From assembly GCA_000827325.1 (NCBI GenBank), contig KN832873.1, positions 1,564,245-1,628,244 on the forward strand: 64,000 nucleotides of DNA, in the 5' to 3' direction. The translations under genes were made by a program, and so were the position numbers. The notes beneath the pieces are model-generated. The model did no database searches and was not told the DNA's origin. It saw only the letters and a list, made by a program, of their open reading frames with translations. The DNA is from Oidiodendron maius Zn (taxonomy: Eukaryota > Ascomycota > Leotiomycetes > Myxotrichaceae). This document shows positions 13,073-16,000 of the stretch, piece after piece. Position 1 is the first letter of the stretch; every line of letters begins with the position of its first letter.

Positions 13073-16000
13073 CTACCACCAAGACTGGCCGCTGCCACCA
13101 CCAGATGGGTTGCCGTAAGATCCTCCACCATATCCACCACCATAAGATGGGGCGCCGCCATAGGCGGCTGGCGGAGGGCCACCGTATCCACCACCATAGG
13201 CAGGAGCTGGGGCGCCGCCGAATCCACCACCAAGGCTTGGAGCACCGCCACCACCAAACTTTCTAAAGTCACGGTTGGCCCCGCTACCACGGCCACGGCC
13301 ACCAGAGCGACCGCCTCCTCGCCCACCACCAAAGCCAGAGCCCTCACGTGCAATGTTCTCGAGGAATGCAGGTACGTCCTGGTTAGCCTCCTTCAAGAGA
13401 TCAATGAGATCCCGGACAACACCTCGGTTGCCACGGTTGAAGAATGCAGTTGAGATACCCGTATTACCCGCACGGCCAGTACGACCAATTCGGTGAACAT
13501 AGTCATCGATGTCGGTTGGAAGATCGTAGTTGACAACGTGCTTGACATTCGGAATGTCAAGTCCACCTGCGTTAAGAGTTAGTTGATGATTCTGAGACGT
13601 TTGAAACAGAATAGAAATGTGTTGACGAAAGGAAAAGGTCCAAAAGGGGTCCAGGGTGGGAGTCCTGGACAAGTGCAAAAATTCGGCCTGCGGCGAGACT
13701 TAGGCGAGCTTAGAACTCGCCGCCAAGTCTCTGAGTTTCTTGGCATGCCTGGGGCCTTTCAGATGGGTCTCGAGCCTGGCAGCAGATGCAGCAGCATGTT
13801 TGCAGGTTTCGCACCAATGTTTCTTCCTGGTGATAGCGAGTTGAGAACCGCCACGGCCCTTTGGGGTTTTAACAATTCCAGCAGCCTTTCTGATGTGGAT
13901 ATGGAGGTTCTGATGTCCCAAAAGCCACGCATTGGAGCGGAATGTGAGGTCGCAGATAGTGAATTTATGTCGCTGGTCTTTCAGGGCTTTCTCTTTGGTC
14001 TCCTTCGATCGCGCAGCATGGACTCCTGGACCTAATGCAGCCTTCCATTCGCGATCATAGGGCCTCTTTACTTCCAGTCTATTGGCATCGAGAGCCTCGA
14101 TTTCCTCGGGTGTAAGGTTCATAGCAGCGCTGACTACCCCTTCTTTGGTCGAGAAGTGTGTGCAGCAGCCATCGTAGCACAGGTCACTGACAGGCCAGGG
14201 AATCAGAGCAGGCATGAAATAGTCCTTTGTACGACTCTTCATAACCCGGAAATAGAGACCGAAGGCACACTCGAGGATGAGAATGAGGCCGCGGAGTGCA
14301 TATTGCTCATTGACAGATGGTATGGAGGTCCAGGCGAGCAAGTCTTTGTGTGTAATCTTGAACCCTTCCCTCAGAGCTGCGAGAACTGCCGCCGGAGAGT
14401 CTTAAAGAGATTGTAGGGGCGGTCCGGGACTGTAGGACATCTAGCAGACCAGAAGCAAATTCGAAGGATGCACGAAGCATAACGATTTCCATGATGTCCT
14501 GACTTGGGAAGATATAGTTCAAGACGTGGTTCTTGAGAGCACGGTTGGTAAGAGACAGACAGGCCCAAGCTAGCAGCAGGACAAAGACCGAGATATCATC
14601 TGTCTCGGGCCCCATGTCGATTGTGGTCAAGGGCCTTGTCGTGGTAGGCGGTGATTGAAAGCTTCTAGAGGTCTGGGAGATCTTGGCCGTGATCGAGGGT
14701 CTCGTTGTGGTAGGCGGTGATTGAAAGCTTCCAGAGGTCTGCGAGATATCCGAGAGAGATGTGGCCTCATTTTGAGGTGTAGTAAAGGAAAGGATGAAGA
14801 TCCATTATGGCAAGACCAGGGCTGGGTAGAACTTGTGTAGCACTTGCTACACCAATTGGTGTTGGGTGTGGAAAGAACGAAAGGAGGAATACATACGAGC
14901 TGCAACAGCGGTGGCGACAAGGATGGGGCAGCGACCATTGCGGAACATCTCTAGAGCGCGCTCACGTTCTCGCTGGGTACGGTCACCGTGAATGGAAGTG
15001 GCAGGGAAGTTTTGGTTAATCAGGAAGTCCGACAGGGAATCTGCCATGCGCTTGGTTTCCACGAAAATAAGAGTGAGACCAGCGCCATGGGTGTGGAGGA
15101 TGTCAAGCAGAACAGAGCGCTTGTCCATATCCTCAACGTACTCAATCTTCTGGGTAATGTTCTCAGAGGTAGAACCAACACGTCCAACAGACAAGAAGAC
15201 ATAGTCCTTCAAGAAATCTCTGGCGAGCATCTGAATGTCGCGAGGGAAGGTGGCCGAGAACATGAGGGTCTGACGGTTCTGGACACCTGGCATATCTTCG
15301 CCTTCCACAATGCGTCGAATCTGGGGCTCAAAACCCATGTCCAACATGCGATCAGCCTCGTCAAGGACCAAGTATTTGATGTTACACAGAGAGATGCGGC
15401 CACGCTCGATAAGGTCGACAAGACGGCCGGGGGTCGCGACAAGGAGATCGCAGCCTCCTTGGAACAGTTAGCATATGAACTGAAGATGTTTGAAACAGAA
15501 TAGAAACGTGTTGACGAAAGGAAAAAGTCCAGAAGGGGTCCGGGGTTGAGAGATGTGCGAGGGGTCCGAGATGTTGGTTGTATGTCCACGTGCCGTGGCG
15601 AGGAAGGATGAAGGACCATCATCGTGAGTTTGAGGATAGGTAAGACCGAGTACAGCGCTTGCCATATCATCTGGTGTTAGGGGGGGGGGGAGGAACGAAG
15701 GAAACTAGAAATACATACGCTCGATTTGGCGGAGTTGGGAGCCTATGTCGGCACCTCCGTAGACAACGCATGGTCGTACCCAGGATCGGTAGGAGAACTT
15801 GCGAGATTCATCGAAGATCTGAGAGACAAGCTCACGGGTGGGAGCAAGTATCAAAGAGGTGGGGTATGCCTTGCGTTGGCGGCCAAAGCTTCCTCCAGCT
15901 CCTGCTGGTGGGGGGGAAGGGCCAGTCAGGAAGGCTTGAGACAAGATGGGGAATAAGAAACCACCAGTCTTTCCCGAACCAGTCTGGGCGCAAGCCATCA

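Follow-up and report, generated by a model that had tools for sequence, protein, structure and literature searches.

Candidate homing introns of the spliceosomal type, with a decayed endonuclease-like gene in DED1, in conserved nuclear genes of Oidiodendron maius

Until 2025 homing endonuclease genes were associated with self-splicing introns and inteins; mirusvirus introns have since joined the list. The spliceosomal homing introns ('shintrons') of mirusviruses, described in Nature Microbiology in November 2025, carry HNH and GIY-YIG genes, and the authors state that no link of this kind had been seen before (PMC12768974). Shintrons share with the fungal introns analysed here a spliceosomal nature, typical donors and acceptors, residence in core genes and the lack of a group I or group II signature, and both carry genes, those of shintrons for endonucleases and those of the fungus for putative ones; shintrons lie in viral genomes, above all in virion genes, whereas the fungal family occupies cellular housekeeping genes (PMC12768974). 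The fungal family also differs from shintrons in having zinc fingers and, within one genome, sister introns and successive stages of decay, and its endonuclease identity is weaker (PMC12768974). Like I-TevI and the Seg proteins (group I introns, T4), the fungal family joins a nuclease-like core to a DNA-binding module and places the gene within an intron of an essential gene; unlike them, it has the spliceosome in place of a ribozyme, and the sequence match is not significant.

Three further systems bear partial resemblance. In the nuclear genome of the fungus Ustilago maydis, UMAG_11064 is a GIY-YIG endonuclease gene whose core has been broken by a deletion; it is a single mitochondrial transfer in a telomeric region, with no family in spliceosomal introns (PMC7593156). 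Sister stwintrons and derived introns of Hypoxylaceae are likewise related spliceosomal introns at different positions, new ones arising by copying, but they comprise scores of similar copies with inverted repeats and the abstract mentions no encoded gene, whereas the copies described below are few, diverged and mostly within one gene (PMC8469720). Introners are also mobile DNA that makes introns, with copies across many genes of a genome, compared with at most one further place per DNA search here (PMC9860276). A search of open-licence full texts in PMC, limited to top-ranked results, returned no report of homing-type spliceosomal introns in nuclear genes of cells; preprints and subscription papers lie outside that scope, so an unseen report is possible.

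The window is a 64,000-nt stretch of the Oidiodendron maius Zn genome and includes DED1. The following features of this gene, all on the minus strand, are referred to below:

13073..16757, minus strand: DED1, four exons, encoding a 662-aa DEAD-box helicase (spliced frame; helicase segment against DDX3X, E 3e-61)
16578-16474, minus strand: DED1 intron 1, 105 nt (spliced frame)
15458..15718, minus strand: DED1 intron 2, 261 nt, a sister intron without ORF (leader and tail homologous to intron 3)
13567..14896, minus strand: DED1 intron 3, 1330 nt, the family intron (splice signals; frame exact after splicing)
14616..14896, minus strand: leader of intron 3, homologous to the intron 2 leader (local score 81, against at most 47 in 1000 shuffles)
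14623..14747, minus strand: 66-bp tandem duplication in the intron 3 leader (two 59-nt copies, 88% identical)
14403..14615, minus strand: N-terminal part of the family protein, beginning with the ATG at 14615 (42% identity over 62 residues to the clathrin copy, E 8e-7)
13700..14401, minus strand: C-terminal piece, an open frame of 233 codons plus stop that keeps the glutamate region and the zinc fingers and is without GIY, YIG and arginine
13745..13816, minus strand: C2H2 finger of zf-met type (17.8 bits against a Pfam cut-off of 21.2; C, C, H and H columns invariant across the family)
13567..13699, minus strand: tail of intron 3, including the branch site and the acceptor; homologous to the intron 2 tail (score 106, against at most 29 in 200 dinucleotide shuffles; 86% over 84 nt)

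An earlier sequence-only reading had proposed a 1.33-kb third intron in DED1, and this was confirmed: its donor reads GTATGT, its branch site CTAAC and its acceptor GCAG, translation of the spliced sequence gives an uninterrupted, stop-free 662-aa protein once introns 1-3 are taken out, and the helicase segment aligns to human DDX3X without gaps at the intron 3 junction (VAAR|GLDI). That reading also put the other introns of the window at about 40-260 bp; DED1's own other two measure 105 and 261 nt. The same-strand C2H2-type frame that it placed in intron 3 is present at 13700-14401, with a zf-met finger that scores below the Pfam cut-off, but the single ORF drawn from 13700 to 14615 is instead two pieces in different frames, an N-terminal one (14615 to about 14403) and a C-terminal one (14401-13700). 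Alignment to the clathrin copy shows that about 50 residues holding the GIY, the YIG and the arginine are absent between them, so that the GIY-YIG-like core ascribed to this copy has been lost here and survives in its relatives. The DED1 copy is thus best read as a decayed family member, and an active GIY-YIG nuclease can be ruled out there because these core residues are gone.

The 233-aa frame matches five other genomic places (protein search of the genome, E 0.002 to 6e-31). Four protein queries (the DED1 piece, the proteins of the clathrin and SSB1 introns, and the zinc-finger piece of the glycyl-tRNA synthetase (GlyRS) intron) were searched against the 45.9-Mb genome at E limits of 0.01, 0.1, 1 and 1, respectively, and gave 6, 10, 11 and 6 matches, own places counted. 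All 33 fell within seven places, a lower bound on family size since only the best candidates were scored in the protein search. Besides DED1, these are:

L003 intron 969-2333, sense: clathrin heavy chain, frame open over 404 codons between stops
L004 intron 683-2166, sense: SSB1 (ribosome-associated HSP70), intron 4, frame open over 365 codons between stops
L005 intron 1340-1966, sense: pyruvate carboxylase, zinc-finger remnant
L006 intron 1423-1844, sense: GlyRS, zinc-finger remnant
L026 intron 4228-3214, minus strand, sense: presumably a tricalbin-like gene, decayed copy
C2:320428-321394, same strand as an adjoining exon piece: ectopic seventh copy, broken frame with two stops

Six of these seven places are inside introns of conserved genes and on the sense strand relative to the host gene. 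At the sequence level these six introns have canonical spliceosomal sites, and removing the intron restores the host frame in all six host genes (read entirely in DED1 and partly in the other five), and five of the six align without gaps across the junction to solved relatives. The probability that at least six of seven places would fall in introns by chance is <1e-5 if introns make up a tenth of the genome, and under that assumption lodging in introns is therefore a property of the family. The two intact frames are likewise longer than expected, with chances of 7e-9 (404 codons, clathrin) and 4e-8 (365 codons, SSB1). The dispersed family with a GIY-YIG-like core and fingers that had been suggested from the window is supported, lodged in nuclear spliceosomal introns of essential genes, but it is small, at seven or more places.

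The clathrin and SSB1 copies contain GIY(x13)YIG, RF..Y and then a glutamate in a hydrophobic stretch, with the motifs in order; the first motif is altered in the ectopic (AVY) and tricalbin-like (AFY) copies. A GIY-YIG profile built from UvrC, I-TevI, YhbQ and two other GIY-YIG genes of the same genome was compared with four family cores, and its scores were reached by 0, 2, 9 and 8 of 2500 of their own shuffles; adding five T4 Seg proteins to the profile shifted these counts to 1, 24, 51 and 1 of 2500. The reverse test, a family profile against ten GIY-YIG domains, was mostly weak, with the score reached by 2 to 773 of 1000 shuffles (L028, 2; I-TevI, 7; UvrC, 124; SegA, 329; YhbQ, 773). Pfam PF01541 (GIY-YIG) did not match the family in hmmscan, and the genome's four PF01541 matches are other genes, none in the family, one of which we take to be SLX1. 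Alignments by hhalign of the family to the T4 Seg proteins and the two other GIY-YIG genes were not significant. We use the label 'GIY-YIG-like' because PF01541 is unmatched, hhalign is not significant and profile support is weak; the motif and the profile scores point to a putative nuclease. We note two GIY-YIG-like genes of the genome outside the family and below the Pfam cut-off, L028 (C6:196849-196992) and L029 (C1:668034-668189), one of which belongs to a 609-codon frame.

The zinc-finger part forms a separate, putative DNA-binding module at the C-terminus, where only the clathrin copy has a zf-met C2H2 finger above the Pfam cut-off (21.8 bits; threshold 21.2). Second codon positions are 52-71% identical in all six pairs compared and third positions 32-37% in five of the six, against about 27% in shuffles, a pattern that demonstrates past protein-level selection on the family ORFs. 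The remaining pair, the ectopic and DED1 copies, is 56% identical at third positions, which suggests a younger split of these two. Assignment of the protein to a known Pfam family was rejected, as only zinc-finger and other weak matches were obtained. NCBIfam gave no match, PHROGs only weak matches of unknown function, and a PDB sequence search weak zinc-finger matches or one chance match. No family relatives were found in viral contigs (four scans) or by tblastn in 50,697 phage records.

Relationships among the introns extend beyond the coding sequence. DED1 introns 2 and 3 are homologous from donor to branch site, in leader and tail, and intron 2 is without an ORF; the intron itself therefore looks like the multiplying unit. 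DNA searches of the genome found no third copy of this intron pair. SSB1 intron 7 (L024 5366-5780) retains the frame end and tail and is 79% identical to the intron 4 element (E 2.8e-9; score 71, best of 200 shuffles 31), and in six comparisons of intron 7 with introns from other genes, between 4 and 76 of 200 shuffles scored as high as the real pair. SSB1 intron 6 is a shorter remnant (35 against a best shuffle of 31 with intron 4, and 37 against 24 with intron 7). In pyruvate carboxylase, the second intron (iB) has the family leader and no recognised ORF. Family coding sequence is thus found in eight introns of six genes, with two further, bare sister introns. Fifteen introns were compared in every pairing (105 pairs), and 15 pairs scored at least 28, the threshold for reporting: nine outscored all 200 shuffles, and for the other six between 1 and 14 shuffles did as well. 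Among the nine, several depend on coding sequence. The proposal that an element had landed in an intron of an essential gene consequently stands as regards a family in spliceosomal introns and falls as regards a simple landing, given the homology of introns 2 and 3 in both leader and tail.

Together, we read DED1 intron 3 as a decayed spliceosomal homing intron whose former gene encoded a GIY-YIG-like endonuclease bearing C2H2 zinc fingers, a reading to which we assign a probability of roughly 0.65. The protein from the open frames in the clathrin and SSB1 introns, a putative nuclease, would cut an allele without the intron, and repair of the break from the intron-bearing allele would copy in both intron and gene. 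The host spliceosome would excise the intron from the mRNA, and insertion into an essential gene would therefore do little harm. Once empty sites were exhausted, the ORF would decay, as may have happened in the copies of DED1, GlyRS, pyruvate carboxylase and the tricalbin-like gene. Loss of the ORF could leave behind an intron that is shorter and plain, such as DED1 intron 2 or pyruvate carboxylase iB. Sister introns would come from occasional events in which the intron is copied to another position of its host gene. The location, the splicing signals, the stages of decay, past selection and the sister introns are observed; nuclease identity, cutting, homing and the order of invasion and then decay we infer.

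The main rivals are insertion of the ORF into existing introns and copying of introns at the RNA level with a passenger ORF. Under the first, a freestanding endonuclease-like gene would have entered existing, immobile introns, and insertions elsewhere in conserved genes would have been lost to selection. The DNA similarity between ORF-bearing introns of different genes is indeed mostly coding, and the bare sisters might be older introns in which the ORF was never lodged. We nevertheless consider this mobile ORF unlikely, as sister introns in DED1 and SSB1 match outside the ORF too, and the ectopic copy brings with it the leader and an exon piece of its host gene. This copy is preceded by about 50 bp of pyruvate carboxylase exon, outside the true gene (L021 ~4100-5650, C2:320.1-321.7 kb), and its leader is 80% identical (E 8e-71) to the intron that follows the same exon in the true pyruvate carboxylase gene (iB), which makes the two a further sister pair; no host gene was recognised by eye around it.

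The same ectopic copy bears on the second rival, in which sister introns arise by reverse splicing or reverse transcription of host introns and the endonuclease-like ORF is a passenger. Sister introns do occur mostly within one gene, and no target-site duplications accompany the multiplication of sister stwintrons in Hypoxylaceae (PMC8469720). Against this, the ectopic copy consists of pyruvate carboxylase exon plus unspliced intron, and was therefore copied as DNA or as unspliced RNA; the recurrence of one protein family in introns of six genes would also go unexplained. We rate this route less probable than entry of the ORF alone.

Introner-like elements are known in fungi, and a DNA transposon of that kind, making introns with the zinc-finger protein as transposase, would account for related introns at new positions. 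The copies are few and diverged, a repeat search of DED1 intron 3 found no inverted repeat of at least 14 nt joining its ends, and we judge such a transposon very improbable. A genome-wide introner was rejected as an identity for these introns, since DNA searches of the genome, run with each of four introns and with the ectopic stretch, returned at most one further place each. An ordinary nested host gene of conserved function would fit sense-strand ORFs under protein-level constraint, but is scarcely credible for several divergent, mostly broken copies in unrelated genes with at least six of seven places in introns (<1e-5 under the one-tenth assumption given above). A group I or group II intron was also rejected: no Rfam match was found at the DED1 intron 3 locus (L009), nor any at gathering score across seven loci, and a group I ribozyme core was not found.

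If homing introns of the spliceosomal type are what DED1 and its fellow hosts contain, such introns would be brought into cells, in genes for clathrin, SSB1, DED1, pyruvate carboxylase and GlyRS, where they are open to expression and assay. One genome seems to show the whole cycle, from open frame through broken frame, remnant and bare intron to sister intron, and a cause of spliceosomal intron gain would therefore become directly testable. The family suggests that some ordinary nuclear introns are selfish mobile elements from which further introns can arise. We give even odds to the broader proposition that cellular nuclear genomes host selfish spliceosomal introns, which would be spread by their own DNA endonuclease, hidden in essential genes by the spliceosome rather than by a ribozyme or intein, and left as ordinary introns after endonuclease loss, with within-gene copying as a DNA-break route of intron gain.

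Two candidate signatures did not hold across the family. Conserved insertion sites, considered as a mark of homing, apply to DED1 only, where 19 of 20 residues around the site are conserved and 2 of 130 windows are equally good; clathrin, pyruvate carboxylase, GlyRS and SSB1 show no unusual conservation at their sites (13 of 20 residues each), a result that counts against the homing reading. A tail motif, TTGGA..GCATCA, seen by eye in several introns, was given no weight because a genome scan for a similar pattern gave three matches against three in the reversed control.

Several minor features were recorded. Phase 1, with the codon split after its first base, occurs in seven of ten family introns (DED1 introns 2 and 3; clathrin; SSB1 introns 4, 6 and 7; pyruvate carboxylase introns iA and iB; GlyRS; tricalbin-like) by our own reading of the sequences. 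Four of the six host genes (DED1 in the window, L003, L005 and L026) are on contig C4, which accounts for 2.84 Mb of the 45.9-Mb genome, and the clathrin and pyruvate carboxylase elements lie about 5 kb apart in neighbouring genes; clustering of hosts on C4 may reflect either local spread or chance. The leader of the SSB1 intron (L004 ~700-1010) contains tandem repeats upstream of the open frame, as seen by eye. The pyruvate carboxylase intron carries a duplicated tail (L005 ~1762-1966), giving two possible 3' ends by eye, ..GCTCATAG and ..GCTAACAG, about 95 nt apart.
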